From assembly GCF_005889715.1 (NCBI RefSeq), contig NZ_VCKW01000006.1:1-64000 (forward strand): DNA of 64,000 bases. The letters are read 5' to 3'. This stretch comes from Actinomadura soli. GTDB lineage: Bacteria > Actinomycetota > Actinomycetes > Streptosporangiales > Streptosporangiaceae. The position numbers and the translations under genes were made by a program. The notes beneath the pieces were generated by a model. That model made no database searches, was not told where the DNA came from, and saw nothing but the letters and a program-made list of their open reading frames with translations. This document shows, one piece after another, positions 15,152 through 57,851 of the stretch; position 1 is the stretch's first letter, and the number at the start of each line of letters is the position of its first letter.

Positions 15152-15524
15152 GGGGGTGACCGGCTTCGACTTCGGTCGTTCGAGCCAGGGGAAGCGGGTC
15201 GAGGGTTGCTGTCGTGACCTCGTAAATCCTGTGACAGCAAACCAATAACTGCCAACACGAAGCAGTCCGAGTTCGCTCTCGCCGCCTGAGCGAGTAGCGA
15301 ACTCTGTCAGCCCGGGTGAGTCTCCGCCCCGGGACCTGGCATCGTAAGGAGACTCCACCTACCAGCCCGGTCGCGGGGCCGGTAGGGAAACCCAACAGCG
15401 ACTGAGTCCGTCGGCGACACGCCTGCGTGAGCGCCGGGACTGAGAAAACGCCAAGCAGGCTGCACCCGGAGAAGCCCTAGCCCATCACCGAAGGACGCGG
15501 GTTCGATTCCCGCCACCTCCACCA
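15152..15524 (+). ncRNA. ssrA: Transfer-messenger RNA (tmRNA, SsrA)
   Basis: tmRNA acts as tRNA-Ala and then as mRNA to tag stalled nascent proteins for proteolysis. The tRNA-like ends are clear: 5' GGGGGTG pairs with 3' CACCTCC followed by encoded ACCA, and the T-arm GCGGGTTCGATTCCCGC lies just before. The tag frame starts with the resume codon GCC at 15251 and reads ANTKQSEFALAA then TGA (15287-15289), ending in the usual ALAA degron. The 373-base length is normal. Downstream pseudoknot-forming GC stretches lie between the tag and the 3' domain. smpB is 2.3 kb upstream on the same strand. The encoded CCA is part of the gene. Confidence 0.98.
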
Positions 15525-15826
15525 CCCGCGAAGCCGCCGGCCAGAACACATCTGACCGGCGGCTTCCGCGCGCACGCCACCGTTCCTCTACGAACTCGAC
15601 CCCGATGGCGCGCGCGAGGTTCTCGACGACGTTCAGCCCGAAGGGCACCACAGCCGACGCGGCGAACACACGCTGCTGGAAGCGGCGGAGCCCCTCCCGC
15701 CCCTCGGGCTGTATTCCTTGAGGTCGTCGGGTGTCCACTTCGAGCCACACGTTATCCACGCACTGGACGGCGAACCGTCCAGGCGACTCTCTACCCTTGG
15801 ATCGCTATCGCCAAGGAGGGGTCACC
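15525..15826. other. Gap between tmRNA and small Asp-tailed gene
   Basis: No gene is supported in these 302 bases. A C-to-G rich complementary pair just after the tmRNA end (GCCGCCGGCC near 15535 and GACCGGCGGC near 15554) can form a terminator hairpin for tmRNA. The AAGGAGGGG at the end belongs to the next gene. Confidence 0.4.
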
Positions 15827-16021
15827 ATGCTGCCCAAGCTGCTGCAAGCGTTCTTCAAGGGCCTGTTCGCCGTCGTCATGACCCTGATGCCGACGTCCGT
15901 TCCCGCCGTCGCCACCCTCGTGGCCGTCAGTTCGACCATGGCCATCACGGCCGGCTGCGCAGCGGGGGACGATGACGACGGCGGCGATGACGAAGACAAT
16001 GACGGCGGCGACGACGACTGA
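15827..16021 (+). CDS. Small secreted or membrane protein with Asp/Gly-rich tail
   Basis: The 64-residue product has a strong ribosome site, AAGGAGGGG, 6 bases before its ATG, the best argument that it is real. Residues 1-40 are hydrophobic (two segments around FFKGLFAVVMTLM and VATLVAVSSTMAITAGC) and end in an AGC that resembles a lipobox. The last 18 residues are almost only Asp, Gly, Glu and Asn (AGDDDDGGDDEDNDGGDDD). This suggests a membrane or surface-anchored polyacidic tail that could bind cations or basic surfaces. No family is recognised. It stands alone between tmRNA and the convergent pseudogene. Confidence 0.55.
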   Translation: MLPKLLQAFFKGLFAVVMTLMPTSVPAVATLVAVSSTMAITAGCAAGDDDDGGDDEDNDGGDDD

Positions 16022-16217
16022 TCGTCCGCGCCGCGCCCCGCCGCCCGTCACCGGTCTGCCAACGGCGCTTGACCTGACGGCGGCCTCGTGGTGGAGTGCC
16101 GAACGTTCGTTGACCAGCGGAGCGACGACCAGCAGATCGCCTGGGCCGACGAGCGGTTGCCCGGCAGGCGCGCCCGGCTTTTGTGACGCCGTGTTCCTTC
16201 TGCGCGCTGGCGCCGAA

Positions 16218-17508
16218 TCACTCGCCGGTCGCTCCTTCCTCTGGCGCGCCTGACCCTGGCGACGGCTCCACTCGCACTTCGCTGACCGGCTGGGGTACGT
16301 GAATCCAGGCGAGTTCGGTGAAGCCCTTCTCGGGGATCATCACCTCCGTGCGCTGAAACGACTCGGCGTCCAGTGCGTCCCCGCAGTGCAGGATGACGTC
16401 CCTGTAGAGAACGTCGGGAACGATCAGCACGAAGTCCGAGGCCGGGTGCGCGGCGAGTGTCTGGCAGTGGAGTGGAGTCGAGGAGACGGTGGACCGCGAT
16501 GGTGGAATCGCCGACCCAGCCGTTCGCGCCGTTGCTCACATGTCCGCGGTGCAGGGAGACCCGGATGCGGAGTCGAGCGTGCTCGCTCAAGTCGATGTTG
16601 CTCTCGACCAATGCCTTTCGGAGCTCGGTGACCAGCCGTGGGATGACGACCGTCTCGTCGATGTCCGGGGGCAGGACCACGAACTGCCCGTCTCCGGACG
16701 CTTGAACCTGGTTGTCCGGGACGTCGACCCCGGCATTGTGTCGGGCGCGGGCCAGTAGGTCGACGAACCGTCGCTGCGCACGGATGGCCTCGGTCAGTCG
16801 AAGTCGGCTGAAGCGTTCGATGTCGGCGGCCAGGCACAGCCTCACCCCCGACTTCGTCTGTGATCGGGCGCCCGGTCCAGCGGCCCAAGGCCGGCTCGGC
16901 ACCGCCATACCCACATCGTGCGACACATTGGGACGCGGCCCGGATCGTCCTGGAGGCAGAGATGCGACGAAGGGCTGGGGTTCACCCGCGCTCACGTGCG
17001 CGATAGACCACCGGTTCTGACGGACCGTCGCATCGGCTCGCAGTGAACCGCGAAGATCGGGCAGGTCGGCAGGAACGGCCAGCACCGCGAGTACCATGTG
17101 GCCGCCGTGCACACCCCGTTCCGATTCGAACTGCGTTCCCGCCGCGGCAGTGGAGAGTCCGTCGAAGGAGACTGTCACCTCCGGCGCCTCGGCGGACTGA
17201 CGGGGAGAGGCTGTCTCCAGGTCCAGGACCATCACGCGGTCGTCCTCGAACGACGTCCTAAGGTAGACGGCGATGATCACGGGCCGCCGCTTTTCCACCA
17301 CCTCGAATGCCACCCGCAATCCCACCAGTTCGTGGCCGCCCAATACGGAGGGATCGACCCTGCCCTCCTGCTCGGTAAGCGGATACGCCGTGGGGAGGGC
17401 CAGGCGAATGGTCGCGACATAGGCCGCCTTGGACATGGGCAGCTTTCCACCGGCGGTCGTGAGTTCGACGCTCGCCGCCGGTTCGGAGTCCATCGACGCC
17501 GCGCTCAT
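16218..17508 (-). pseudogene. Nucleotidyl-cyclase-like protein, frameshifted
   Basis: Translation starts at ATG 17508, overlapping the NUDIX gene stop by ATGA. An N-terminal beta-rich domain of unknown type (about 180 residues) is followed by a class III cyclase-like fold: LAADIERFSRL carries the first metal Asp, ASGDGQFVVLP the GDG hairpin with the second, and GWVGDSTIAVHRLLDS matches the substrate-binding helix, where the usual Asn is replaced but Arg is kept. The frame then breaks near 16464, where one extra base separates LLDSTPL from the expected continuation QTLAAHPASDFVLIVPD in the next frame, which ends at 16218. Either this is a recent loss-of-function mutation or a sequencing error. 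Product and activity are unknown. The fold resembles Pycsar-type cyclases only in general outline. Confidence 0.7.
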
Positions 17509-18170
17509 TCCCGGATCATGGGAAGGTCCGGCAGATAGCGTCGGTCGCCGGACAGGAATCCGGCATGCCCGCCGATCAGCGCCCTGCGGTGTCTGCCGTC
17601 GCGAATCTCGGCCGAGGTCGCGCAGATGACCAACGGCACGGACACGTCCGCCCCCGCCCTGACCAGTTCGATCCTCAGCTGGTGTGCGGCGGCATCGCCG
17701 ACGCACAGGTCATGGACCTCGAATCTGCGCAACTGCAGGTAGTCCTTGCCTGCCACCGGTTCGGGCCCAGTCGTGGTCGTTCGTAGGTGGCTGAAAGTGA
17801 GACGCCGGACATGGGGTACGAGATGCGGAAGTTCCACCTCGTTGAGCTCTTCGGCCAGTTCCCTGCGCAGACACTCCGTCGCGCTCTCTCGATAGGCGCC
17901 GCTGAGGAACCAGCGTTCGAAGGCCGGAATCGATTTCCCGGGAAGGAAGCCACGCAGGTCATGATGGAGATCGTTGGCCAGCGGCTCGGGTCTGTCGGGC
18001 CGAAAGCCCCAGCTCTCCAGGAGCCGGGCCGCAGGGCCGAAGTGTTTGTACACCCCGCCCGGCGGGTTGAACACACCGGGACGGCTGGGAGAGTGCAGCA
18101 GAACATGGCGGTCGTCATCTCGGATGCGAACCAGAGCCGAAAAGGAGATCCTTACTTCCCGTGCGCGCAT
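17505..18170 (-). CDS. SMODS-associated-type NUDIX domain protein
   Basis: The 221-residue product starts at ATG 18170 after GAGGAGAGAAGAGG. It begins with a beta-strand region FSALVRIRDDDRHVLL, then FNPPGGVYKHF, a long insertion with DLHHDLRGFLPGKSIPAFERWF, and a NUDIX box core SATECLRRELAEELNEV with the REXXEE metal-binding residues. This order matches the SMODS-associated NUDIX family (Sa_NUDIX), found in bacteria near nucleotide second-messenger immunity genes. The cyclase-like gene follows with a 4-base overlap, so the pair is translationally coupled. NUDIX proteins hydrolyse or bind nucleoside-diphosphate-linked compounds; here the substrate may be the product of the cyclase partner, which is inference. 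Confidence 0.72.
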   Translation of the reverse strand: MRAREVRISFSALVRIRDDDRHVLLHSPSRPGVFNPPGGVYKHFGPAARLLESWGFRPDRPEPLANDLHHDLRGFLPGKSIPAFERWFLSGAYRESATECLRRELAEELNEVELPHLVPHVRRLTFSHLRTTTTGPEPVAGKDYLQLRRFEVHDLCVGDAAAHQLRIELVRAGADVSVPLVICATSAEIRDGRHRRALIGGHAGFLSGDRRYLPDLPMIRE

Positions 18171-25091: not shown

Positions 25092-28000
25092 TTAGTCAAT
25101 GTGGAGGGCGAGGCTTTCGATGAGGGCCTCAAGATTTGGGTCGGTGCGGGCTGCGGCGCGGAGGCGCTGCAAGGTCGCGCTGAGCCATTCGGACGGTAGC
25201 CGGTCTCGTTCGGCGGCGAGTTGGTACAGGACGAGTTTCCGATAGATGGTCCGTGCCCTGTCGTCCTGGCTGATAGTGGCAAAGAAGCCGTCGAGGGCGA
25301 TGGTGAGGCAGGCGTCGTAGGCCGTGGTCAAGGTCGTCTCGTCTGAGTCGGGGCGTGAGTTGGAGAGCCATAGGGTGAGGAGCGCGTACGCGGGGGAGAA
25401 GGCGCGCTCTTCATCGGGGCCGTGCAGGGTGCCGAACGTTGGATCGAGAACGCCCGTGAGCGGTTCGAGGGCATGGGCCATCGTGTCGTCGACGTCGTCG
25501 CACATGAAATGAACGTGATGACGGACGTCTTCCAGGCTGTAGTTGCGCCACCGTGAGAACCGGCCCCGTCGCTCGTCGCCGGGAGGGATGGCGTAAGACC
25601 AGTACGGGTCAACTGGCGGGACGGGGGTCTCGTCACGGTCGAAGCTAATGATCACAGACCTTTCTGTGTCACGCCACGACCGATTCACCTTGAGGCTATG
25701 GACAAGGCCACTCCATCCTTCGGCGGTGAGTTGGGCGCGCCACAGGTAGGCCAGCCGTCGCCATTGGGCGATCGGCTTTGCCCGGTCCGGGAACAGTTCG
25801 TTTACCGCGACCGGGGTGCCCAGGAGAGTGATGAGCAGCATGAGATTCGCCGCATACGCGGCGTGTCGGCCCGGGACGGAGACCGCGGCCGGCCGGTAGC
25901 CGTCATACGCGCCGGCACTCCGTTCTTCCAGTGACCCATGGAACAGCCTCAACAGCAGATCGCGGATCACCGGGCGCCGTTGCGCTGGGATGGTCACCAG
26001 GCGATCACGCAGGAAGTCCACGGTGCTCTGCCGGGTGGTGAGCGCAGCGTACGAGAGCAGAGCGTGCAGGAACGCGTCATCGATTGGCGTCCTGCGAGTC
26101 TGCGCCGCGGCGAGTTCGGCGGCGGCGGCCAAGGCATCGAGTTCGTGGACGACCAGACGGGCGACAAGGTACTCGCCGAATGTGGCGTGCAAGAACTCGT
26201 AGGTACTGAGCTGTGACTCCCCGCGCTGCGCTCGTGCTTCGTGAATGAAGAAGAACCGGCCGATCGTCAGTTCCGAGTCTGACAGGGGCGACTGCATAGA
26301 GGTGGTCTTGCCCCTGGCTGAGTGCATTTCGGGTAGCAGCGTGCTCAGATCCCCGTCCAGCTCCTCAGGGGTCGTCCATTGCCGGTTGCGGTTGAACATG
26401 GCGAACGCCACGATCGACAATCGCGTCAACTCCACGTCCACCGCCCGCGCGAGATCGGCCTTGGACGAGGATCTGTGGGTTTTGGAGTTCTCCCGTTCGG
26501 CGAATCGGCGCAGGAGACGTTCGTACAGGTCCGCCGCCTGCAACGTCGTCGACGAACGCTGAAGCAGGTTGTGGTCGGCATCGTATAAGGCGAGCATCAG
26601 CAACAGGAGCGGCTGTGCGGTCAGCTCGCGATGCTGCAGTACCGCTTCCAGCGGCAGCGGTCGCAGGTGACGGCGAGCGAGAACGGCTGAGTTGGCGGCG
26701 TTCCAGACGCCGAGCCACCGCTCGATCTGCGCCTCGCGGAACGGCTCCAGCTGAACGGCGATCATGCTGTCCACCGCGCGGGCGCGGTCGGCCACCGTCG
26801 TCCGGCTCGTCACCACCACGGCGACCGGGCGGCCCTGCTCGGCCTCGCGTCGCTGCAGCCGCGCCGCCTGCACCAGGTAGTCCGACTGGTTGACGCCGGT
26901 GGCCTGCAGCAGTTCGTCGAACCCGTCCAGCATGACCACCGGAAGGGCTCCGCCCGCGCGGCGCACGAGCCGGGGCCATGAGACGTCCTCCCCGGTCGTC
27001 ATCCTGATCGCCTCTTCGATCTGGCTCTGCAGATCGGTGTCGGCCCGCACCTCACGCAGCACCACCCGCACCACCAGGAAGTCGCGAGGAGACAGTTTCG
27101 CCGCAAGGATCCGCGTCAGCACTGACTTGCCGGACCCCGGCTGGCCGAGGATCAGCAGCGGCGCCTCCGTGGCCTGGGGGGAGGTCAGATGGCCGAGCAG
27201 GAAACCGTGCAGATCGGTGCGCACGGAATGTTCTCGCCACCACGACTCCCGAGCCACGAGGTCGCCTGAATCGACATACGCGGCACGGAAGTCAGGGTTG
27301 ACGTAGATGTCTCCAAGCGGGGGCAGTACGAGGTCTTCACCCGAGCCCATCTCCAGGACGGGCTTGCTCAATGCGACCTGGTGGTAGCGGGCGAGGGCCC
27401 CGCCCACGTCCCCGGTGTCCCGGTCGGCGGCGACCTGCTCCAGCAGCCGTTCCATCACTTCCAGGCCGCCGCGCAGACCCCGCACCTCGGCCCTGGTGGC
27501 CTGGTGATCTACCAGATTGGCCCAAAACGCCACCTCTGGAAACTCTCCCGCGAGCCGGCGGAACATTTCCTCGTAACGACGCAGGGCACGCTCGGGCAGA
27601 TCGTCTCGCACGGCTGCCTCTAGCTGGTGGCTCTCCTGCTCGCTCAACTCGCGCCAGGCCGTTGTGGCCGCGATGACCTGCTGCACCGCCGTGGACAGGT
27701 CATCGTAAAAGTCGTGCAATGCGGCCATGGTGATTTCGTACGGCCACTGGGGAGCCGGCATCGGTACATCGGAATGCAGGAGTGTTCGCACCAATTCGCG
27801 CATTCGGCCGTCACCCGCGTCATCGCCGGTCGCGAAGGCGATCTGACCGGACCGGCCGAGCTGGAGTTCGCTGACCTCGAACGGGAGATCGATCTTTTCC
27901 AAGCGCTCAAAGAACGCTGTGACCACAATGACTGAATGCGCTGCCACCAGCCGTTCGCTGCGCTCGAAACGACCGAGGCCCGACAGGCGCTCGCTCAGCG

Positions 28001-28193
28001 TGGACACCAATTCCCTGCTGAGGCGAACCAACTCCGCACGCGGATCGAAGAGACTCATCAGCAGGCCGCCGCCGGTCACCGACGCGGCGGCCAGCAGGGC
28101 GCCGCCCGTCAGGCGGTCCAGCATGGCCACGGTCCGGCCTTGCCGCCCTCCCAGGAGCTCGGCCGCATCCGCATAACTCAAGCTCCGCGCCAT
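25092..28193 (-). CDS. NACHT-family STAND NTPase with N-terminal helical (NNH-type) domain
   Basis: The 1033-residue protein begins with a helical domain, LSYADAAELLGGRQGR to FFERLEKIDLPFEV, like NNH domains (closest to NNH7) fused to bacterial NACHT modules. Walker A is GQPGSGKS at residues 350-357 and Walker B is PVVMLDGFDEL near 419-428, followed by a sensor VVVTSRTTVADR. The C-terminal half has helical repeats, LSTYEFLHATFGEYLVARLV being the typical NACHT winged-helix end. Bacterial NACHT proteins sense invasion or stress and oligomerise with ATP; the trigger and effector action here are unknown because the N-terminal domain is not enzymatic. It stands alone, 168 bases downstream of the membrane-protein operon. 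Confidence 0.88.
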   Translation of the reverse strand: MARSLSYADAAELLGGRQGRTVAMLDRLTGGALLAAASVTGGGLLMSLFDPRAELVRLSRELVSTLSERLSGLGRFERSERLVAAHSVIVVTAFFERLEKIDLPFEVSELQLGRSGQIAFATGDDAGDGRMRELVRTLLHSDVPMPAPQWPYEITMAALHDFYDDLSTAVQQVIAATTAWRELSEQESHQLEAAVRDDLPERALRRYEEMFRRLAGEFPEVAFWANLVDHQATRAEVRGLRGGLEVMERLLEQVAADRDTGDVGGALARYHQVALSKPVLEMGSGEDLVLPPLGDIYVNPDFRAAYVDSGDLVARESWWREHSVRTDLHGFLLGHLTSPQATEAPLLILGQPGSGKSVLTRILAAKLSPRDFLVVRVVLREVRADTDLQSQIEEAIRMTTGEDVSWPRLVRRAGGALPVVMLDGFDELLQATGVNQSDYLVQAARLQRREAEQGRPVAVVVTSRTTVADRARAVDSMIAVQLEPFREAQIERWLGVWNAANSAVLARRHLRPLPLEAVLQHRELTAQPLLLLMLALYDADHNLLQRSSTTLQAADLYERLLRRFAERENSKTHRSSSKADLARAVDVELTRLSIVAFAMFNRNRQWTTPEELDGDLSTLLPEMHSARGKTTSMQSPLSDSELTIGRFFFIHEARAQRGESQLSTYEFLHATFGEYLVARLVVHELDALAAAAELAAAQTRRTPIDDAFLHALLSYAALTTRQSTVDFLRDRLVTIPAQRRPVIRDLLLRLFHGSLEERSAGAYDGYRPAAVSVPGRHAAYAANLMLLITLLGTPVAVNELFPDRAKPIAQWRRLAYLWRAQLTAEGWSGLVHSLKVNRSWRDTERSVIISFDRDETPVPPVDPYWSYAIPPGDERRGRFSRWRNYSLEDVRHHVHFMCDDVDDTMAHALEPLTGVLDPTFGTLHGPDEERAFSPAYALLTLWLSNSRPDSDETTLTTAYDACLTIALDGFFATISQDDRARTIYRKLVLYQLAAERDRLPSEWLSATLQRLRAAARTDPNLEALIESLALHID

Positions 28194-33218: not shown

Positions 33219-33968
33219 GTGGACTTGCTGGTCGTCACCGTGGCCCAGCGTCCCGACCTGGCGGATTCCGTCAACGAATTCGATGACTGGCCCGCCTTTA
33301 TCAACCAGGACAAGGTCGGTGACCTGTACTACGCCGACGCCATTACGGCCTTCCCCGAATTCGTGCAGCTGGCCTTCGACCGGGCCGCGCCCGACCGGCT
33401 GGTGGCCAAGGCGTTCAGCGTGCCGTTCAGCTGGGCGCATGATCCCGACGAGCGGCTCCCCGCCGGCGCCTGGGACGAGGTCATCCTCGCCGCCACTCAT
33501 GATCGGCTGGCGGGACGGAAGGGCAACCTGGTGTCGGCCCTGGAGATCTCGATCCGCCGCGACCTGCGCGGCACGGGCCTGGCGGCCGTGATGCTGGCGG
33601 AGATGCGCGGCAACGCCATGCGGCTCGGGTACAGCAGCCTGGTCGCCCCGGTGCGCCCCAACGCGAAGTTCCATCAGCCGGACATGCCCATCGAGCAGTA
33701 CGCGGCCCTGTCCCGCGACGACGGGCTGCCGGTCGATCCGTGGCTGCGGACCCACGTGCGGGCCGGCGGCCGTATCGTCGGATTCTCGCGGCACGCGATG
33801 ACCATCAGCGGGGAATTGGCCGAGTGGCGTTCGTGGACCGGTCTTCCCTTCGACACCGCGGGTCCGGTCTACGTCCCCGACGCGCTTGTGCCGGTCCATT
33901 GCGATCTGGTCCACGACTATGCCGTCTACTGTGAGCCCTGCGTATGGGTGCACCACCCGCTCAACTGA
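33219..33968 (+). CDS. GNAT-fold N-acetyltransferase-like protein
   Basis: The 249-residue protein starts at GTG 33219 with GGAGGG upstream. The acetyl-CoA-binding signature is recognisable: LEISIRRDLRGTGLAAVMLA, with the R-x-x-G-x-G/A-like loop DLRGTGLA, then EMRGNAMRLGYSSLVAPVRP. Its length and the C-terminal Trp/Cys-rich end (CEPCVWVHHPLN) are larger than minimal GNATs. Substrate unknown. The 3' end overlaps the convergent radical SAM gene by 8 bases. Confidence 0.65.
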   Translation: MDLLVVTVAQRPDLADSVNEFDDWPAFINQDKVGDLYYADAITAFPEFVQLAFDRAAPDRLVAKAFSVPFSWAHDPDERLPAGAWDEVILAATHDRLAGRKGNLVSALEISIRRDLRGTGLAAVMLAEMRGNAMRLGYSSLVAPVRPNAKFHQPDMPIEQYAALSRDDGLPVDPWLRTHVRAGGRIVGFSRHAMTISGELAEWRSWTGLPFDTAGPVYVPDALVPVHCDLVHDYAVYCEPCVWVHHPLN

Positions 33969-35376
33969 CTTCGGCGTTCAGCGCGCCGGATTCCATCGCG
34001 CCGCCGAATTTCCGCAGCGCGTCCAGGTAGACCGAGTAGACCTCGTCCGGGGTGGCCAGCGGGGTGTCGAAGACCGGCGGAAGCTCCTCGTGGTAACGGT
34101 CGAATTCGCGATGGTGGAGCCGCATGCCGTGCCGTTCCGGCGCGGCGAAGTACGAGGTGCCCGGATAGGGCACGAACACCGAGACGTACGACGCGGTCAG
34201 CAGCCCCTCATCGATGAGCGCGGCCACCTGGTCGACCGTTCGGCACATGTCATCGCGGCTCTCCACCGGCAGCCCGATGATCGTGTACGTGCAGACGAGC
34301 AGCCCGGCATCGCGCAGCCGTCGCAGGATCTCCCGTAAGGCGCCGAGCCGCGTCCACTGCTTCATCGAGTCCTGCGTCGCCTGGTTCAGCGATTCCAGCC
34401 CGACCTCGAGCCATCGGCAGCCCGCCGCGTACAGGGCGCTCGGCAGCCTCACGTCGTTCAGGCAGTTCAGCCGGGTCTGGCAGTCGAAGTGGACGTCGCC
34501 CCGCCGGGCGAGGAGCGCGCAGATGTCGAGGGTCCGGTCGGTGTTCAAGGTGAACGTCTCGTCGCCGAAATAGACGGAGTGATGCGCGCCATATCGGTCC
34601 CGGTAGGCGTCGATCTCGGCGAAGACCCGGTCGGGCAAGGCGTACTGCGGACGGCGCCCGATCGTCTGTATCGTGCAGAAATCGCACCGGAAAGGGCAGC
34701 CCAGCGCGTAGTTCTGCCTGATGTAGCGTATTTCGCCGCCGACCGACGGATCGAAGACGTCGACCTTGGGAAAGGGCAGCGAGGACAGCGGCGTCCGGTC
34801 ATGGCGGGCCGGTGTGACATGGACGCGGCCGGCGCCCGCGTCGAACGCGAGATTGCCCGTTCCGGTCCAGTCGGCGCCGGAGGCGAAGGCGGTGAGCAGG
34901 CCCATCAGCGCCTCCTCGCCCGGCCCGTGGACCACGACGTCGACCGACCGGTGCCGGGCGAGTTCGGCCCTCAACGGGGTGGCGACGATGCCGCCGAAGA
35001 CGGTCCGGGCGCGCGGATATTCCTCCTTGACGATCTCGGCCACGCGCAATGCCTGCGGCAGGTTCACGGTCATGGGCGAGAACAGGTAGACATCGCCGGG
35101 ACAGCGCGACACCTCCCGGCGGACGAGTTCCTCGTCGATTCCGTCGGTGACCGAGCCGTCGACGTACAGGTTCAGCGTCGCGGTCTCGAATGTCCCGTCC
35201 GTCGCGACGACCCCGGCCAGCCAGGGAATCCAGTGGGGCAGCTCCCACATCACCCGCCGCATCCGGCGCGCCCGCGGGTGAGCCGGATAGTAGCGGTCGT
35301 CGAGCCTTTCCCAGTAAAGGTCCCGGCCCGGAACCTCACGGGCCGCGTACGGTGCGTGCACGAATACAATTCGCAT
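33961..35376 (-). CDS. B12-binding-domain radical SAM protein
   Basis: The 471-residue protein has an N-terminal cobalamin-binding-type domain (residues 1-180, with DVYLFSPMTVNLPQAL and TVFGGIVATPLRAEL) and a radical SAM core with the cluster motif CPFRCDFCT. A downstream GLPVESRDD segment matches the SAM-binding strands. Such enzymes use SAM cleavage to methylate, cyclise or rearrange substrates. The substrate here is unknown. The gene starts 10 bases after the stop of the caspase-WD gene and is probably the last gene of that operon, an unusual partner for a protease/lipase pair. Confidence 0.85.
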   Translation of the reverse strand: MRIVFVHAPYAAREVPGRDLYWERLDDRYYPAHPRARRMRRVMWELPHWIPWLAGVVATDGTFETATLNLYVDGSVTDGIDEELVRREVSRCPGDVYLFSPMTVNLPQALRVAEIVKEEYPRARTVFGGIVATPLRAELARHRSVDVVVHGPGEEALMGLLTAFASGADWTGTGNLAFDAGAGRVHVTPARHDRTPLSSLPFPKVDVFDPSVGGEIRYIRQNYALGCPFRCDFCTIQTIGRRPQYALPDRVFAEIDAYRDRYGAHHSVYFGDETFTLNTDRTLDICALLARRGDVHFDCQTRLNCLNDVRLPSALYAAGCRWLEVGLESLNQATQDSMKQWTRLGALREILRRLRDAGLLVCTYTIIGLPVESRDDMCRTVDQVAALIDEGLLTASYVSVFVPYPGTSYFAAPERHGMRLHHREFDRYHEELPPVFDTPLATPDEVYSVYLDALRKFGGAMESGALNAEVS

Positions 35377-35386
35377 ATCTCACCCA

Positions 35387-38300
35387 TTAATGGCCTGTCG
35401 TGAACAATGTGGCGCTGAGGTCGATCGCGATGATCCCCCTGGTCGTCCCGACCGCCAGCGTCGCTCCGCCGCCGGTGCGCAGCCGGGACGCCGGGTCACC
35501 GAGGCCGTCGGCGAGGTCGCACACCGGCAGCCCGATCGGCAGGGCCCGGACGAGCAGCCGCGACTCCGGGTGCCACAGGCACACCGTGCCGTCCATGCCG
35601 CCCGACGCCAGCAGGGCCGCGCCGTCCTGGCGGGTGACCACGGCCACCGCGCGCACCTGGCCGGCGTGGCCGGACAGCGGCGCGCCGGCGGGGCGGCCGG
35701 ACGCCGGGTCCCACAGCCGCACGAGATGGTCCGACCCGGCCGCGGCCAGCAGGTCGGGGCCGCCCTGCACCGGTACCGAGCACAGCGACCAGATCCAGGT
35801 GCCGGGCGCGGCCGGCAGCGTGCCGGACGCGGACCCGTCGGCCAGGTCCACGAGCGTCACCCGGCCGTCCTGACCGCCGCAGGCCAGCAGCGACGTCCGT
35901 GACGTCCGCACGACGCACAGCGACTGCACCGGGCCGTCCTGCACCCGCGCCGGCGGCACTCTCCAGCGGCCCGTCCGGACGTCCCACCGCCCGACCGTGC
36001 CGTCGCCGTAGCCCACCGCGATGGCGTCCTGGTCCGGCACGGCGGCCAAGGCCAGGACGGGCGCTTCAGCCAGTACCGGCGGGTGCACGGGTGCCGGGCG
36101 CCGGGGCTCTGCCCCATGCGGATCGGCGGCCCGCAGGTCGACGGCGTGCAGCGTCCCGTCGGCACAGCCGATCACCACGACGCAGCCGCCGGGATCCGGG
36201 ACGCACACGGTCACCGCGTGGCCGTCCCGCCACACCGGCCGCCACCGCGGCGCGTCCGGGCGCCATGTGCTGAGCACGCCGTCGCGGGAGACCAGCAGGC
36301 AGGCGGGCCCGGCATCGCCCGCCATCGGCCGGACGACCCCGACGCTCAGGGGACTGTCGTCCAGCGGGGCGCCGCGCAACCGGGAGGTGGACGGATCCCA
36401 GACGCGGACGAGGCCGTCCTGGCCCGCGGACGCCACGTGGGCCGCCCCGCCCGGCACCGGGCCGGGCGGCAGAGTGCAGATTCCCCAGCCCGTCCCGGCG
36501 TGGCCGGACAGCGGCGGCCCGGCCGGGCGCCCGGTGTCCGGCTCCCAGAGCCGCACGCAGCCGTCGTCGCCGATCGTCGCCAGCCTGCCGTCCCCGCCGG
36601 GCACGAAGCAGATGTCCCACAGCGAACCGCTCTGGGTGACCACCGGCGGCCCGGCCTCGCTCCCGGTCTCCGGGTCCCACACCCGCGCGGTCCCGTCGTC
36701 GGACGCGGTGGCCAGCCACACGCCGCCGCCGGGACGGGGTACGACGCACATCGCCATCACCGCGCCGGGATTCGTGCTCGACGTCAGGTCCGTCATGGCC
36801 GCGGCCCCGGGTCTCCAGTACCGCAGGACACCGCTCGCCGAGGCGCTGAACACCGTCACACCGTCGTCGCCGTCCGCCACGCACGCGGCGTAGACGTTGC
36901 CGGCGTCCTGCGACAGCACGGTGGCGGCCTGCCCCGGGACGGCCGGGTCCCACAGCCGGACGGTCCCGTCGCTCCCGGTCGTGACGAGACCTTCGCGACC
37001 GCCGGGCAGCGGCACGCGGCAGGACGACCAGACCGGGCCCGCATGGCCCGTCATGGGCGGCCCGGCCTGTGCCCCCGTCTCCGGGTCCCACCGGCGGACG
37101 GTCCCGTCGTTCCCGGTGGTCACGATGAGGGCCGGACCGTCGGGCGGGCTCACGGCGCACACCGACCAGACCGGGCCCACGTGGCCGGCCAGCGGCGCGC
37201 CGACCGGCAGCCCGGTCACCGGGTCCCAGCGCCGGACCGAGCCGTCGGTCCGGGTGGCGGCGATGATCGGCCGCGGGCCGGCGCCCGTCAGGAACGCCGC
37301 CCTGGTCACCGGGACCGGACCGGTGGCCGGTGGTTCCGGCGCCAGCGCGCCCGGTGAGACGTCCCAGATCCGGAGGGTCCCGTCGGCGCCCGCGGTCGCC
37401 AGCAGCCGGGCGCCGGACAGGTCCCCGGTCAGCCCGCACACGCCCCACACCGTGCCCGCGTGCCCGTACAGCGGCCAGGTGACCGGGGCGTCGTCGGCCA
37501 TGAGGTCCCAGAGCACGACGACCCCGTCCCCGCCCACGGTGACGAGCTGGTCGCCGCCCGGACCGGGCAGGGCGCACCCGCGCCAGATCGGGCCCGCGTG
37601 CCCCGGCAGCGGCGAGCCGACCGGTTCCCGGCGGCGCGGATCCCACAGCCGGACGATTCCGTCGACGCCCATGGCCGCGATCAGGGTTCGCCTGTCGGGG
37701 GCGCGCACCACCCGCACCTCCCAGACCGGGCCGCCGTCGCCGCTCATGGGCGGGGCGGTCTGCCGGCCGGTGAGCGGATCCCACAGCCGGACGGTCCCGT
37801 CCTCGGCCCCGGACACGATCAACGGCGCGGCGGCGCCCTCGTCCAGCCAGAGCGGGCACACGCTGAAGACGGGCCCCTCGTGCCCGGTCATCGGATCGCC
37901 GACCGGGGAGGACGTGCGCGGATCCCACACCCGCACCGTCCCGTCGCTCCCGGCGGTCACGAGCAGGTGACCGGACCCGGCGACCGGTATGGCGCAGACC
38001 TCCCAGATCGTTCCCTCGTGGCCGGTCATGGGACGGCCCACGGGCTGCGCGGTCACCGGATCCCAGAGCCGGACCGTCGCGTCGTCGCCCACCGTCGCCA
38101 GCTGCCCCCCGACCGCGCACACGTCCTCGACGGCGCCGTCGTGCCCGGTCATCGGATCCCCGATGGGCGCGGCCGTGAACGGGTCCCACAGCCGGACCGT
38201 CCCGTCGTCCCCGACGGAGACGAGCAGCTCGCGCCCGTCCTGGCCCCGCGCCGTGCAGACCGCGTTGGCGCCGCCGTCATGGCCCGAGATGACCAGGTGC

Positions 38301-40684
38301 GGCTGCTCGGGCGGCAGCGCCGCGCCCGCCACCCCCCAGGTCGCGGTCGGCTCCTGGACGTGGTGGGCCGGATCATGGGTCAGCATCGACAGGTGCCGGA
38401 GCCCGGCCCGGTCGCCCGGGTCGGCGTCGACCAGCCGGGCCCGGGCCGACAGCACCGCCGCGAGCCGCGGCGGAATCGGGCGGCGTCCGAACAGGGAGGT
38501 CGCGATGTCGCCGGCCATCGCGTTGGGATCGAGGCTGTCGAGCACGGCCCGCCGGCCGCCGAGCTCGTCCCACAGGTCGGCCTCGGCGATGTGCGCGGAC
38601 AGGTAGCGGCGCAGGTAGCTCGAATCGATCGGGGACGCCCGGCCCGCGGCGCGCAGCAGTGCCGCCGCCGTCGCGCGGCACCGCTCCCGGTACTCGTGGG
38701 CGGGGACGGACGGCGCCAGGAAGTGCTCCACGAACGTGCGGTGGGCGAGCCGGTACACCGTCTGGCCGGCCTCGCTGGTGACGGTGATGTAGGCCGGTGC
38801 CCGATCGATCAGGTCCTGGATCACCGCGCGGTCCACCGGCGGGCCGGTCCCGTCCCCGGCCGCCGGGAGCAGTGCCCCGGCGGCGATGCCCCACACGTCG
38901 TCCTCGATCGGCAGCCCGCGCCCCTTGGCCTGCGCCAGCGCCTGGATCAGGGGCACGAAGGCGTCATGCTGCCGGCCCAGCCGGGCGACGACGGCCGAGA
39001 ACAGGTCCCGGTGGGTGCCCGACAGCAGCCGGCCCAGCGTGTGGGCACGTCCCGGGTCCAGCAGCGAGGGATTGTGGATCAGCTCGTGCACCGCCAGCCG
39101 GGCGAACAGGAACCGCTCGTTGCGCTCGGCGATCGCGTCGGCGGCGGCGGCGATCCACTCGTCGCGCGGCGGGTAGTCGCTGATCGGGGTCCGGTGCTCG
39201 CCCGGGTGGTCGCGCGCCTCGCGCAGCCGGCGCGAGACGTAGCGGCGCATCGCGGTCGGGTCCGGCCGCAGCGCCCGGACGGTCGTCGCCGTCCCGCCCA
39301 CCGCCAGGGCCTTCAGGAGGTTGTCGTCCGTGGCCGGGTGGTCCGGTGTCTCCGCCGTCGACGGCCGGGTGCCGAGGACGATCCGCAGGCTGGTGCCGGC
39401 GGCGAGCCGGGCGAGCGCCCGCGCCGTGTCGAGCGGGTCGACGGCCTCGTCCAGGGCGTCGGCGAGCAGCGTGTACGGCGCGTCCCGGCGGAGCAGCTCC
39501 GCGTGCAGCCAGTCGAGGTCGTTCGCGAGCCCGAGCAGGGGGTCGCCGGCGCTCGGCGGGGGCCCGCACCCGGCTCCCTCGGCGATCCGCCCGACCGTCT
39601 CGCGGATGGACAGCCCGGACAGGTGCAGCGCGTGGTCGAAGGCGCCGTCGGCGGGCGCGGACGGCGCGGGCAGCGGATCGATCAGCCCGCGCCGCAGCAA
39701 CGCCTCCCGCACGTCCGGCAGGGAGTGGATCAGGAGGGTGCCGAGCAGCGCCGACTTGCCGATGCCGGCGGGCCCGGTCACCACCATGACGCCGTGCCCG
39801 TGCCGGGAGATCCAGCTCACCACCTCCGCGCACTCGTCCTGGCGGCCCTCGAAGAACCAGGAGATCTCGCCCTCTTCCGCGCTCTGCGCCTTGGACAGGA
39901 AATGCCTGCGCTCGTCGGTGCTGAGCTGGGTGAGCGCGTCCTCCAGGTAGCGGATGCTGTCCAGCGGGCCGGACAGCGACGCCGGCGGCGGAGCGGCCCG
40001 GACCAGCGCCGCGTCGCCGGGCTGGAACAGCTCGACGAAGCCGCCGGGCAGCAGCGCGGCCAGATCCTTGCAGATCTCGTAGAAGGTGATCTCGGCCCGG
40101 TCCTTGTACGTGCCGCGCAGCAGGCACCTCAGCGCCTCGCTGAACCGGCCGAGCGCGGTCGCGCCGTCCGCCGAGACCCCGACGAGCAGGACGCGCGCCA
40201 CCCGGTCGACGGAGCGGTGCATCGCGCCGGCCATCAGCTCGGCGAAGCGCGCCGACCGGCACGCGTCGATCACCACGATCGCCCAGGCGCCGTCCGCGGT
40301 GAGCTGCCGGCTGATCACGGCGTCGGCGAGCTGCTCCGGGCTCACGCCGAAGGCCCCGACCTCGGGCGGGCTGGCCGAGTGGGCGAGGGCGGCCGAGGTG
40401 TCGTCGGACCAGCCGTGACCGGCCCAGTACAGCACCGAATCGCCAGGGCGCTCGGGGCGCGCCCAGGTCAGCAGGCGCCGCTGGACGGCGTTCGCGTCCC
40501 GCTGGTCGAGCCTGCCGGGCCAGCGGCGGTGCACCGGCTCGAAGTCCGCGAGCAACTCCAGCACCCGGCCGACCTCGGCGTCCACCGGCAGGTCGGGCAG
40601 GTCAGGGTCCTGGTACCGGCCGATCGCCATGGGGAACAGCTCGAGCTCCGGCGGCGGCACGGCCCCGTCGATCGCGGCTGGCAC
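35387..40684 (-). CDS. Caspase-like protease / STAND NTPase with 21 WD repeats
   Basis: The 1765-residue protein combines three parts. Residues 1-230 form a caspase-like domain with His90 in YWAGHG and Cys142 in VVIDACRS, the catalytic dyad. Residues 280-790 contain an NTPase, Walker A GPAGIGKS at 304-311, followed by helical arms. Residues about 795-1765 are WD repeats of about 46 residues, units of the form GHxGPVWSVC...DGTVRLWDP. I count 21, enough for three seven-bladed propellers. WD repeats usually bind the ligand that triggers ATP-dependent assembly; the caspase domain would then act as effector. The GTG start lies 4 bases after the lipase stop. It is probably a cell-death or defence protein, inferred from architecture. 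Confidence 0.9.
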   Translation of the reverse strand: MPAAIDGAVPPPELELFPMAIGRYQDPDLPDLPVDAEVGRVLELLADFEPVHRRWPGRLDQRDANAVQRRLLTWARPERPGDSVLYWAGHGWSDDTSAALAHSASPPEVGAFGVSPEQLADAVISRQLTADGAWAIVVIDACRSARFAELMAGAMHRSVDRVARVLLVGVSADGATALGRFSEALRCLLRGTYKDRAEITFYEICKDLAALLPGGFVELFQPGDAALVRAAPPPASLSGPLDSIRYLEDALTQLSTDERRHFLSKAQSAEEGEISWFFEGRQDECAEVVSWISRHGHGVMVVTGPAGIGKSALLGTLLIHSLPDVREALLRRGLIDPLPAPSAPADGAFDHALHLSGLSIRETVGRIAEGAGCGPPPSAGDPLLGLANDLDWLHAELLRRDAPYTLLADALDEAVDPLDTARALARLAAGTSLRIVLGTRPSTAETPDHPATDDNLLKALAVGGTATTVRALRPDPTAMRRYVSRRLREARDHPGEHRTPISDYPPRDEWIAAAADAIAERNERFLFARLAVHELIHNPSLLDPGRAHTLGRLLSGTHRDLFSAVVARLGRQHDAFVPLIQALAQAKGRGLPIEDDVWGIAAGALLPAAGDGTGPPVDRAVIQDLIDRAPAYITVTSEAGQTVYRLAHRTFVEHFLAPSVPAHEYRERCRATAAALLRAAGRASPIDSSYLRRYLSAHIAEADLWDELGGRRAVLDSLDPNAMAGDIATSLFGRRPIPPRLAAVLSARARLVDADPGDRAGLRHLSMLTHDPAHHVQEPTATWGVAGAALPPEQPHLVISGHDGGANAVCTARGQDGRELLVSVGDDGTVRLWDPFTAAPIGDPMTGHDGAVEDVCAVGGQLATVGDDATVRLWDPVTAQPVGRPMTGHEGTIWEVCAIPVAGSGHLLVTAGSDGTVRVWDPRTSSPVGDPMTGHEGPVFSVCPLWLDEGAAAPLIVSGAEDGTVRLWDPLTGRQTAPPMSGDGGPVWEVRVVRAPDRRTLIAAMGVDGIVRLWDPRRREPVGSPLPGHAGPIWRGCALPGPGGDQLVTVGGDGVVVLWDLMADDAPVTWPLYGHAGTVWGVCGLTGDLSGARLLATAGADGTLRIWDVSPGALAPEPPATGPVPVTRAAFLTGAGPRPIIAATRTDGSVRRWDPVTGLPVGAPLAGHVGPVWSVCAVSPPDGPALIVTTGNDGTVRRWDPETGAQAGPPMTGHAGPVWSSCRVPLPGGREGLVTTGSDGTVRLWDPAVPGQAATVLSQDAGNVYAACVADGDDGVTVFSASASGVLRYWRPGAAAMTDLTSSTNPGAVMAMCVVPRPGGGVWLATASDDGTARVWDPETGSEAGPPVVTQSGSLWDICFVPGGDGRLATIGDDGCVRLWEPDTGRPAGPPLSGHAGTGWGICTLPPGPVPGGAAHVASAGQDGLVRVWDPSTSRLRGAPLDDSPLSVGVVRPMAGDAGPACLLVSRDGVLSTWRPDAPRWRPVWRDGHAVTVCVPDPGGCVVVIGCADGTLHAVDLRAADPHGAEPRRPAPVHPPVLAEAPVLALAAVPDQDAIAVGYGDGTVGRWDVRTGRWRVPPARVQDGPVQSLCVVRTSRTSLLACGGQDGRVTLVDLADGSASGTLPAAPGTWIWSLCSVPVQGGPDLLAAAGSDHLVRLWDPASGRPAGAPLSGHAGQVRAVAVVTRQDGAALLASGGMDGTVCLWHPESRLLVRALPIGLPVCDLADGLGDPASRLRTGGGATLAVGTTRGIIAIDLSATLFTTGH
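35400..38300 (-). repeat. Tandem WD-repeat coding array (about 21 units)
   Basis: About 21 units of roughly 138 bases encode the WD propeller region. Many units share near-identical phrases such as SDGTVRLWDP and TGHAGPVWS, while several (units 8, 11, 15-18 and 21) are strongly diverged. Base-level similarity between units could allow recombination and repeat-number change. Confidence 0.75.
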
Positions 40685-40688
40685 GGCC

Positions 40689-42035
40689 TCAGCCGCCGCT
40701 CACCAGGAAGAGCTGCGTCACCGGGCTGGCGCCGCCTCCCGCCACCCGGAGCCGGTACAGCCCGGGTCGCCGCCCGCCGATGACGGCCCGGTGGCCGTCG
40801 CCGCTCCGCTCCAGCTTCGGCGCCGCCGCCTGGCGGCCGGTCTCCGCGTCGGTCACCCGGCACGTGACCCGCGCGGGATGGCCGGCCCCGGTGACGGTGA
40901 AGGGGATCGGCTCGCCGGCCGGGACGACGTCCGGCACGTCGAGGCCGAGCCGGGTCTCGCCCTGCCACGGCCCGGTGTCCCGGTCGGCGAGGACGTCGGA
41001 CGCCACCACCAGCGCCTCCGCGCAGCGGGCCATCGCCCCGTGGGTCTGCGCGAGCGGCTGCCCCGTGCTGTCGCGGATCCAGGCGGAGTCGCGGGGGACC
41101 GTGCCGTCCCCCCTCCGGTCGGCGCGCTCGACGCCGCCGTCCGCCGACGGCCGGCACGTATACCGGTGCCCGGCCACTACGCCGTCCTTCAGGGTGACCG
41201 CCTGGACGGTGGGCTGGTCGGTGCCCACCACCCGGACGTGGCCGGACGGCAGGACCTGCTCGCGGTCCGCCGCGTCGCGCGCCGAGTCCTGCCACAGGCC
41301 GGGGTCCGCGTCCATCCCGGTGATGTCCGAGGCGGTCAGCGCCCGCGCGTCGGCGCCGGTGTCGACGCACCGGTACGTCGGCAGGAGGTCGTAGACGCCG
41401 GGCAGGGTGACCGCCAGCTCACGCAGCCGGCGCGCGGGCAGCGCCGGCGAGCCGCGTCCCGCCGCCAGCAGCAGCGCCGCCTTCGGGGCACCGGAGAACG
41501 GCGTGCCGAACGTCACGGTGGCGCGCACGTCGTCGGCCGCGCCGGAGATCAGGCCGAGCTGCCGGGCGAGGAGGCCGCCCATCGAATGCGCGACGACGAC
41601 AAGCCGCGCGGGACCCTGGTCGGCACTCGCCCGGCGGGCGGCTTCGCAGGCCGGATGCGCCCGCCAGCCGGTCAGATGCCGGTCCGCCGCCTTGGCGAGC
41701 AGGCCGGCGTTGTACGCCACCGGAAGCCGCCAGTCGTACGGGAACGTCGCGACCGCCGCCGGGTCGGCGCAGACCTTGCGCAGGCCGGTGACCAGGTCGG
41801 TGTAGGGCTCGAAACCGCGCAGCAGCGGCGCGAAGGCGGGGAACCGCAGCAGGCCGCCCGGCCGGATGCGGCCGTAGCGGCCCGCCCGCTCCTCGTCGGT
41901 CAGGCGGAGCCGGGCGAGCGAGCGCCCCGATGTCCACGCCTGGACGTACCAGCGCGGATCCCGCAGGCCCCAGAGCTGCTTGCCGCTCTCGTCCTCGACG
42001 AGCTCGGACCCCATGATGCCGGGCACGATGAGCAC
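40689..42035 (-). CDS. LCAT-like alpha/beta hydrolase (lipase/acyltransferase fold)
   Basis: The 448-residue protein begins VLIVPGIMGSELVEDESG and has the lipid acyltransferase pattern TFPYDWRLP and VVVAHSMGGLLARQL, where Ser151 of GHSMG-like AHSMGG is the nucleophile. GDGTVPRDSAW and QTHGAM are likely Asp/His contributors. The C-terminal 110 residues form a beta-rich module. Upstream in frame lies YDA before the GTG, typical of homologues, but no start codon exists before the next stop, so the N-terminus may be slightly short or use a rare start. It may attack membrane lipids as an effector, co-encoded with the caspase-WD gene, but no signal peptide is present. Function is inferred. Confidence 0.8.
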   Translation of the reverse strand: MLIVPGIMGSELVEDESGKQLWGLRDPRWYVQAWTSGRSLARLRLTDEERAGRYGRIRPGGLLRFPAFAPLLRGFEPYTDLVTGLRKVCADPAAVATFPYDWRLPVAYNAGLLAKAADRHLTGWRAHPACEAARRASADQGPARLVVVAHSMGGLLARQLGLISGAADDVRATVTFGTPFSGAPKAALLLAAGRGSPALPARRLRELAVTLPGVYDLLPTYRCVDTGADARALTASDITGMDADPGLWQDSARDAADREQVLPSGHVRVVGTDQPTVQAVTLKDGVVAGHRYTCRPSADGGVERADRRGDGTVPRDSAWIRDSTGQPLAQTHGAMARCAEALVVASDVLADRDTGPWQGETRLGLDVPDVVPAGEPIPFTVTGAGHPARVTCRVTDAETGRQAAAPKLERSGDGHRAVIGGRRPGLYRLRVAGGGASPVTQLFLVSGG

Positions 42036-54302: not shown

Positions 54303-54608
54303 GCCTGCTCCCGCCAGGTCCGGTATCTGGATGATTACGTTAGCCGCCGGCCCGTGGAACAAAAGGTAGATTGCCACACTCGGTCAGACGTCCGGCGAGA
54401 GAACCAAACCGCTAGCGCGAAGGTAAGCGCCGCAGAAAGCGCCGGGCCGGAGATCGCCGCACTGCGCGGCGAATCGATCACTATCGCCTTTTCCAATGGG
54501 GTTGTCTTGGGTGCTGCGGGTTCGTGATCGCCATCATTTTTTGTTCTCGTCTCCTGCGGGCGCCCTCGCGGCGGTGAGGTCGGGCCTTGCCCGGCGATCG
54601 AGGTCGAC
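54303..54608. other. Divergent promoter region between two NTPase genes
   Basis: These 306 bases contain no supported gene. They separate the TPR-STAND gene (minus) and a NACHT gene (plus) and should hold both promoters. A short hairpin (CGGGCCTTGCCCG near 54584) lies shortly before the NACHT start. Confidence 0.4.
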
Positions 54609-57600: not shown

Positions 57601-57851
57601 TTCTCATCGAGAACGCGCAAGCGCTGGCCGCGCCACTGTGGGACCGCGGTCGGCAAATCCAGCAGCGCGATCTGGTCCTGGCCGCCACCTTGCTCCTCGC
57701 GGTCTTTGTCGATGCGCCAAGCACACGCCGTCTTCCGGAATTGAATCAGCACCTCAGCGGCCTGCTCTGTGCGCTTATCGCGCTCACGCCGCGTGGGGAC
57801 CACGCCAGCGCGGCCGACTCCGACCGACTTCTCGTCCTGGTCAAGAACTGA
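54609..57851 (+). CDS. Membrane-anchored NACHT-family NTPase with Asp/Leu-rich C-terminal region
   Basis: The 1080-residue protein has two N-terminal transmembrane segments (about 39-57 and 67-83), then NACHT Walker A GAAGSGKTT at 187-195 and Walker B VVLLDGLDEVAD at 271-282, followed by SRPLGYEPNQL. The NACHT winged-helix end LTLQEFLASAL is present. The last 250 residues are strongly repetitive, with phrases like ARALNLDV, GRALNLDRDHERALNLALYL and DLDLNRA. Such Leu/Asp-rich alpha repeats occur at the C-terminus of some actinobacterial NACHT proteins and may bind the trigger. The start is TTG 54609 (GAGG upstream), with ATG 54621 as alternative. Divergent from the TPR-STAND gene. Confidence 0.85.
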   Translation: MSWFMGERPDSAGVLWVRSERQRIERRKAGRVAVRRVALRVVTAVAGGVIVAVAVNQVFNGSKWNWRALGIAVGVAVGAELVNHWLDRQDAMEGDDPRPAGGKVSRRRYLRRVRLSVEQMETMGLVTQADLVLRTRQVYVDVMLRPRTVADATTDSGIGPGPSSPTPGRRAQLSSFLTAGCVLAVLGAAGSGKTTLARYTALEMAEQRRWPWHREFWRPRIPVLLYLREHAAAILASEPEDLAQVAVDARGLRSVVPAGWLRQHLESGRCVVLLDGLDEVADADDRWRVISWVDDQISRFPGNSFVVTSRPLGYEPNQLSRADVLQVQRFTYQQIRDFLSAWYRAIDRRAYEGDQQEIDRGAAESAEKLFNLISTSPALYDLAANPLLLTMIASVHRYRGQLPGSRVALYEEMCQVLLHRRQSAKGLKDSTDLSGDQKERILQELAWHMMRHTLRDIPAEDAHRAIRRILQRTGPELSADSFLDHARRSGMLVERQHRHYGFVHLTLQEFLASALVPQHPSHRQRLIDKVRDSWWRETTLLWAARNDASPVVEACLAARTVTSLSLAYACADEALELEPDLRAQLDEMLTVTPTDPNEIKLFNGIAAARELHDTRTLNDNGVQLCVNTVSQDLWNRSTGQLNTSDPLTLNRAPATHWWPRDIDPFLTWLNSHFSDGTSYRLPTTEEAHQAAANSLLPVTAIWAGKNNKPHLFSPPLLNHPLLPPSRKVAAYSDLILDHTHLFFRLLFSRSSLSFIQLLTYARPRDLTRPDHQLLTALDLALALKHAEYGLSARTITLARALNLDVGGDSGRVLARNASAIARSLGPEIGLELGSDNAHNLGRALNLDRDHERALNLALYLDLDLNRATDRAPGLERDLRRAVLRDPDHDHDHSSGTAIPLDMDLRVAREFARAGLATFETRVVLHVAHACNRLAAVLSAFAASDQRPRSRAESGGVFHQPLSRALATVREHEPVNDPEATFQQILSLMNTYGPQESVLLIENAQALAAPLWDRGRQIQQRDLVLAATLLLAVFVDAPSTRRLPELNQHLSGLLCALIALTPRGDHASAADSDRLLVLVKN

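Follow-up and report, generated by a model that had tools for sequence, protein, structure and literature searches.

A soluble SMODS-associated NUDIX gene coupled to a frame-broken cyclase-like gene next to the tmRNA gene of Actinomadura soli: a possible remnant of a nucleotide-signalling conflict system

Downstream of the tmRNA gene in the stretch of Actinomadura soli DNA analyzed here (64,000 nucleotides; hereafter, the window), a gene for a SMODS-associated NUDIX (Sa_NUDIX) protein is followed by a gene for a protein with a class III cyclase-like domain, which raises the question of whether both genes constitute a self-contained signalling unit or what is left of a larger system. Both gene identities and the coupling of the two genes by ATGA, as proposed in an initial annotation of this DNA, were borne out. 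The NUDIX protein matched the Pfam family PF18167 with an E-value of 7.1e-33 and 114.6 bits, compared to a cut-off of 25, and the match spanned residues 5-203 of 221 and profile positions 1-195 of 199, so that the curated cut-off was exceeded along the domain. The cyclase-like protein carries the Asp/Asp/Arg site described below, and the ATG of its gene overlaps the TGA of the NUDIX gene at an offset of -3 (Table 1). With PADLOC, the window NUDIX protein was matched by the 2TM Effector model (3.3e-18) and by the RTasNUDIX model (1.4e-15). Furthermore, it keeps the REL-x-EE residues of the Nudix box, with R103, E104, L105, E107 and E108 being invariant in 9/9 aligned proteins. Its 19-residue hydropathy maximum was 1.38, versus 1.90-1.93 in two relatives bearing transmembrane (TM) segments (L050 and L051); the maxima of five soluble NUDIX proteins (window, L044, L045, L047 and L049) were within 0.62-1.38. 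With regard to the cyclase-like protein, no useful family was retrieved from Pfam, NCBIfam or PADLOC; it is conserved in relatives, with E-values down to 1.5e-58 among the genomes of the genus. A sigma-70 promoter scan gave no promoter, and a single terminator-like match was at chance level.

Table 1. Coordinates of the features around the NUDIX and cyclase-like genes in the window.
Feature	Position	Strand	Remarks
tmRNA gene	15152..15524	plus	ARAGORN; matched in 65/65 genus genomes
C-terminal end of cyclase-like protein	16218..16463	minus	other frame, up to stop; matches relatives' C-termini
Class III cyclase-like gene	16218-17508	minus	frame broken; downstream partner of the Sa_NUDIX gene
Stretch holding the frame break	16447..16487	minus	segment ends of six relatives
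Class III cyclase-like domain, first part	16464..16854	minus	holds both metal-site Asp and the Arg
N-terminal domain of cyclase-like protein	16855..17466	minus	alignments A2/A6; no Pfam family
Sa_NUDIX gene	17505-18170	minus	soluble SMODS-associated NUDIX protein, 220 aa + stop, intact; Pfam

The occurrence of the pair was surveyed in 65 Actinomadura genomes, including that of the window; genes in relatives were called with a simple GC-based script, not a gene finder, and genome counts and genome-level statistics are raw values that ignore shared ancestry. Sa_NUDIX was carried by 9/65 genomes. In six of these nine, the window genome among them, the NUDIX gene was immediately followed by the cyclase-like gene in the same orientation, with possible cyclase starts lying between -25 and +98 bases from the NUDIX end. 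Since the paired cyclase was intact in the other five, the pairing first noted in the window also holds for intact relatives. In A. formosensis, a lone soluble NUDIX gene adjoins thiolase and enoyl-CoA-hydratase-like genes (identified by reading), which recur close to the A. madurae locus; on a separate contig, this species has a cyclase without NUDIX (L048). At L050 and L051, the TM-bearing NUDIX has no adjacent cyclase, L051 being near an EACC1 gene. In a phylum-wide sample of 396, Sa_NUDIX was recovered from the window genome only, among at most seven candidates scored per genome, which is not proof of absence. No relatives of the pair were present among the viral contigs searched, and the plasmids searched yielded seven matches to the cyclase domain and a single, weak one to the NUDIX. 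Our literature searches found no description of this NUDIX-cyclase gene pair.

The neighbourhoods of the relatives bear directly on the question. A TCAD9 gene was found beside 4/6 pairs (L043, L045, L046 and L047). Throughout the genus, TCAD9 (PF19974) exceeded the cut-off at six places in 5/65 genomes, five of them within ~7 kb of a cyclase with the N-terminal domain (N-domain) listed in Table 1; at the sixth (L078), CHAT-like genes are nearby and the cyclase is absent. In the phylum-wide search, TCAD9 at E up to 1e-12 was found in 0/376 genomes, among at most four candidates scored per genome and with no positive control, which again is not proof of absence. L043, L045 and L046 harbor a TyrRS-like/TCAD9 protein, a deoxyribosyltransferase-like protein (NDT; PF05014) and a B12 radical-SAM enzyme, and in L045 the genes are organized in a row on one strand (radical-SAM, TCAD9, NDT, NUDIX, cyclase); the TyrRS likeness was observed for the L046 protein, to which those of L043 and L045 are 60-72% identical. 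Both the L047 pair and the NUDIX-less A. formosensis locus (L048) are accompanied by two CHAT proteases and a TCAD9 protein of ~1600 residues, with an additional NACHT match below the cut-off in the case of L048. By these domain matches, the TCAD9 proteins of the fuller loci have either a NACHT-like NTPase or a TyrRS-like domain as fusion partner. Genome G008 has an intact pair and a deoxyribosyltransferase-like gene with a degraded or truncated N-terminal part, and no TCAD9.

A similar survey of the taxonomic family, sampled with 200 genomes, revealed the N-domain in 17 genomes, that of the window included, and 14 genomes belonged to other genera. The cyclase domain was present at 13 of these 14 other-genus loci, all 13 with an adjacent CHAT gene and nine with a Crp-type gene, the cNMP-binding domain of which was confirmed with Pfam in the three scanned. 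The fourteenth locus is L148, situated at the end of a contig, where the N-domain lacks the cyclase and adjoins a CHAT fragment. The 14 surroundings read, each of 7-17 kb, contained no NUDIX match, and neither did L048 and L053; hence the cyclase does not need a neighbouring NUDIX. The earlier statement that no obvious effector lies beside the pair therefore stands for the window copy; for the family it does not, given the TCAD9 genes near four of the six pairs, with CHAT or NDT-like and radical-SAM genes, and the CHAT and Crp-type genes in other genera. The same neighbours give no support to the idea of a stand-alone two-gene unit without effectors.

On this basis, we regard the window pair, with slightly more confidence than doubt, as what erosion has left, in a variable island anchored at the tmRNA gene, of an actinobacterial conflict (defence-type) system based on nucleotide signalling. 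Erosion would be in line with the truncated NDT gene of G008, with the lone NUDIX of A. formosensis and with the window genome itself, in which no TCAD9 exceeded the cut-off (genome 93.9% complete). Within the window, there was no TCAD9 or deoxyribosyltransferase-like match, the radical-SAM match is distant (34.1-35.2 kb) and the CHAT match lies near 51-52 kb. As the partners are present in the fuller loci of relatives, the window copy has lost its effector locally; the assembly is a draft of 622 contigs, and so partners could also be unassembled. In two cases only, the paired cyclase is missing (A. formosensis) or broken (window) although the NUDIX is intact, which fits a restraining or harmless role of the NUDIX protein; the reverse, a cyclase without NUDIX, also occurs (L048 and L053).

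The frame break was located by tblastn with six intact relatives. The first segment ends at 16465-16474 in five of them and at 16447 in one, and the second segment, in another frame, starts at 16463 in 4/6 relatives and at 16487 and 16505 in the other two, which places the break at about 16463-16474, inside the C-terminal cyclase domain and past the catalytic residues. This agrees with the position near 16464, with the remainder in another frame, given in the initial annotation. The position-specific GC pattern shifts in 150-base windows starting at 16548 and below. Identity to the six relatives was 32-53% after the break and 35-45% before it, and this comparable similarity indicates that the break is either recent or a sequence error. 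An error of sequencing or assembly, in a genome that in fact holds an intact two-gene system, is nevertheless unlikely: although the equal conservation on both sides, the draft state of the assembly and the intact pair of G008, likewise without TCAD9, are all compatible with it, it leaves the absent TCAD9, CHAT or NDT partners unexplained, and no run of >3 identical bases is present at the break. At three of the 13 other-genus loci (L144, L147 and L151), the N-domain and the cyclase domain are in different frames, and thus frame changes in this family may represent split genes or errors, not decay.

With respect to the genomic setting, the genes upstream of the tmRNA gene are conserved in relatives, whereas those downstream differ in the eight relatives read; only two of the window genes downstream of it were matched at 1e-15, with ~34% identity (5.6-14 kb read in the eight relatives). 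In four genomes (G001, G027, G043 and G064), 33-35 bases of the tmRNA 3' end recur without a mismatch on the contig of the tmRNA gene, at a distance of 8-38 kb, and these second copies suggest that the tmRNA 3' end is an integration site in the genus. No second copy was found in the window genome; consequently, an intact tmRNA-bounded element was discarded as a description of the window and is not claimed. The GC3 of the pair (0.75-0.78, versus 0.89-0.97 in the core genes upstream) marks it as foreign DNA and has no bearing on the frame break. The interval 15684-16094, between the tmRNA gene and the pair, is 86% identical to DNA of G013 on a contig other than the tmRNA-bearing one.

Within this interval, 15827-16021 (plus strand) encodes a hydrophobic peptide of 64 aa whose acidic tail is rich in Asp; its ribosome-binding site was judged good by eye. 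Matches to the peptide were found in 15/64 other genomes of the genus, five of them only at E 0.001-0.01; three genomes have two close copies, and one copy in G013 is 92% identical. Further along the window, a NACHT-like protein with an NNH7 N-terminal domain is encoded at 25092-28193 (minus strand); at 33961-42035 (minus strand), genes for a B12 radical-SAM enzyme, a WD40 repeat protein of 1765 aa and an LCAT-like hydrolase follow one another; and CHAT, TPR-repeat and NACHT proteins are close together at 49366-57851. Owing to these NACHT, CHAT, WD40 and TPR proteins, the region looks rich in conflict genes.

The C-terminal domain of the cyclase-like protein is a member of an unannotated family of paralogues, which gave 3 to 14 matches in every one of the 65 genomes. 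In class III cyclases, the transition-state pair of Asn and Arg forms the NxxxR motif. Among 30 distinct domains of the top-scoring loci (six duplicates having been removed from 36 rows), the metal-site residues D10 and D54 and the Arg R122 were invariant (30/30), and the three residues were kept in 21/21 distinct cyclases of the N-domain type, including that of the window. The conservation of cyclase residues, a check named in the initial annotation, was thereby confirmed for Asp/Asp/Arg, with the canonical Asn absent throughout: its position is occupied by Ile in 27 domains, Val in two and Thr in one (0/30 Asn). The family therefore has the two metal Asp with the usual spacing and, of the transition-state pair, the Arg only. 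The Asp spacing was 44 in 23/30 domains, window included, and 42 in 7/30; for PycC, the excerpt of PMC11224242 at hand gives the pairs D102/D146 and D62/D106, with a spacing of 44 in both proteins. A profile of nine domains (A4) retrieved two PDB entries at E up to 10, 3mr7 and 5d0g (E 0.52 and 0.61), both class III cyclases and neither a significant match, which is no more than suggestive of such a fold. The full-length A2 profile gave no PDB match, and single-protein PDB sequence matches of the pair were dismissed as chance-like. AlphaFold2 models, from two-row alignments each, had pLDDT values of 46.8 and 42.8, too low for a comparison of folds.

As for known systems, the window protein has the same Sa_NUDIX domain as the CBASS Cap16-type 2TM-NUDIX effectors and the DRT-associated RTasNUDIX proteins of PADLOC. 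However, it is soluble and has no TM segment, which sets it apart from the Cap16 type, and where those systems have a CD-NTase or a reverse transcriptase gene, its neighbour is the class III cyclase-like gene. CD-NTase models gave no match among the ten neighbour and two window proteins scanned with PADLOC (part of all neighbours). The family has in common with PycC of Pycsar the class III metal Asp pair, its spacing and the Arg; it differs by the extra N-domain and by having no sequence-level match, and it carries Ala two residues before the first Asp in 28/30 domains, versus Phe (F100 and F60) in PycC, as given in the available part of PMC11224242. Of the 21 PycTM places recorded in the genus, none coincides with a NUDIX pair, that of the window genome being on contig C250, and a PycTM partnership of the pair was accordingly rejected; at one of the 21 (L126), a member of the cyclase family lies within ~1.5 kb.

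A Pycsar-like two-gene system, with the cyclase making a cyclic mononucleotide that switches on the NUDIX protein as receptor or effector, is an improbable reading of the pair. It would accommodate a class III-like active site with the PycC spacing, the NUDIX-then-cyclase order in 6/6 pairs and the precedent of TM-fused Sa_NUDIX as a CBASS effector (Cap16; excerpt of PMC10419184). Nonetheless, the window NUDIX is without a membrane segment and its catalytic box is intact in 9/9 proteins, neither a PycTM place nor a Crp-type gene occurs at the NUDIX pairs, A. formosensis has a lone NUDIX, and this type of cyclase lacks a nearby NUDIX at 13 other-genus loci. According to the accessible part of a review (PMC10419184), Cap16 with a mutated NUDIX domain is still toxic, which means that the NUDIX of Cap16 is not the killing activity.

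We also considered that the cyclase-like protein might be a non-catalytic nucleotide sensor or adaptor, leaving the NUDIX protein as the sole enzyme of the pair. Because the canonical Asn is absent in all 30 domains, catalysis may, on the alignment evidence, be altered or lost; and in the related ternary systems described in the part of PMC7159879 at hand, cNMP cyclases are signal makers, of which some versions are inactive. However, the N-domain type, with D10, D54 and R122 all invariant, contrasts with the short second cyclase-like gene of the CHAT clusters, which lacks D54 in 7/7 aligned members (8 found). This contrast speaks for constraint on the active site of the N-domain cyclase and renders a mere sensor role doubtful. 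Finally, an ordinary metabolic pair unrelated to conflict is very unlikely, since the finding of NUDIX, deoxyribosyltransferase-like and radical-SAM enzymes in nucleotide metabolism and the lack of phage data are outweighed by the patchy distribution of Sa_NUDIX (9/65), by the variable tmRNA-adjacent region and by the TCAD9, CHAT and NACHT-like partners.

To our knowledge, no activity, signal or phage phenotype is known for any member of the family. Nudix enzymes normally cleave diphosphate linkages, of which a 3',5'-cNMP has none; action of the NUDIX protein on a cyclic mononucleotide is thus chemically doubtful, and the processing of such a product by the NUDIX protein, as had been suggested, is unlikely. 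For the conflict system of which the window pair would be a remnant, we propose that infection or stress, acting through TCAD9 or an NTPase/NACHT-like sensor together with the N-domain, would switch on the cyclase domain, which would make a (cyclic) nucleotide signal. This signal would in turn unleash CHAT or a NAD/nucleoside-cleaving effector (deoxyribosyltransferase/TIR-like). The soluble NUDIX protein might hydrolyze a diphosphate-linked nucleotide, be it an NTP substrate or precursor, ADP-ribose or a modified signal, and might thereby set a threshold or limit self-damage; action of Nudix domains on ADP-ribose or NAD has been suggested in the portion of PMC7159879 available to us.

Several described systems resemble parts of this scheme. 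In the excerpts at hand (PMC7159879, PMC10910872 and PMC8195603), the VMAP/vWA-MoxR ternary systems (Kaur 2020) and CATRA share with it cNMP cyclases, caspase-superfamily proteases, TCAD9 and TIR/DRHyd-type components in actinobacteria, CATRA being the caspase-dependent systems of Burroughs and Aravind (2020), as named in Kaur 2021 (excerpt of PMC8195603). vWA, MoxR and VMAP were absent among the neighbour proteins scanned with Pfam (part of all neighbours), and TCAD9 was present. In SAM-AMP signalling of type III CRISPR, as described in the available part of PMC10600005, the synthase of a nucleotide signal is encoded together with the NrN phosphodiesterase, a soluble hydrolase by which the signal is destroyed. 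This layout of synthase and soluble hydrolase is like that of the window pair by analogy only, as the protein families are unrelated and no CRISPR link has been shown.

A bolder and rather doubtful proposal is that the five-gene row (B12 radical SAM, TyrRS-like/TCAD9, deoxyribosyltransferase-like, Sa_NUDIX and cyclase-like) is an undescribed defence system that builds an unusual messenger, such as a radical-SAM-modified or aminoacyl nucleotide, which the Asn-less cyclase would read or cyclize and the NUDIX protein would destroy; in the CHAT version, the same cyclase would unleash caspase-like proteases. An unannotated actinobacterial cyclase-like family is now tied to CHAT, Crp-type, TCAD9 and soluble Sa_NUDIX genes. 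The intact loci L043, L045, L046 and L047 are material for testing cyclic-nucleotide control of caspase-like or NAD-cleaving effectors in filamentous bacteria, and they also bear on the role of soluble Sa_NUDIX proteins; the window copy itself would be only a remnant.

Two further arrangements of the cyclase family were observed. At L140-L145 and L052, a Crp-type gene, a short cyclase-like gene without the second metal Asp, a CHAT protease gene and an N-domain cyclase gene are clustered, and this pairing of a catalytic with a degenerate cyclase looks like a built-in regulatory dimer. Moreover, two distant cyclase relatives, one on a Streptomyces plasmid (L104) and the other in an Actinomadura genome (L126, in G036), have PycTM-like and Crp-type neighbours, the three genes being side by side at 5426-7786 of L104 and at 700-2915 of L126. 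The PycTM-like protein was over the Pfam cut-off in L104 and under it in L126, and both loci are a possible actinobacterial variant of Pycsar.
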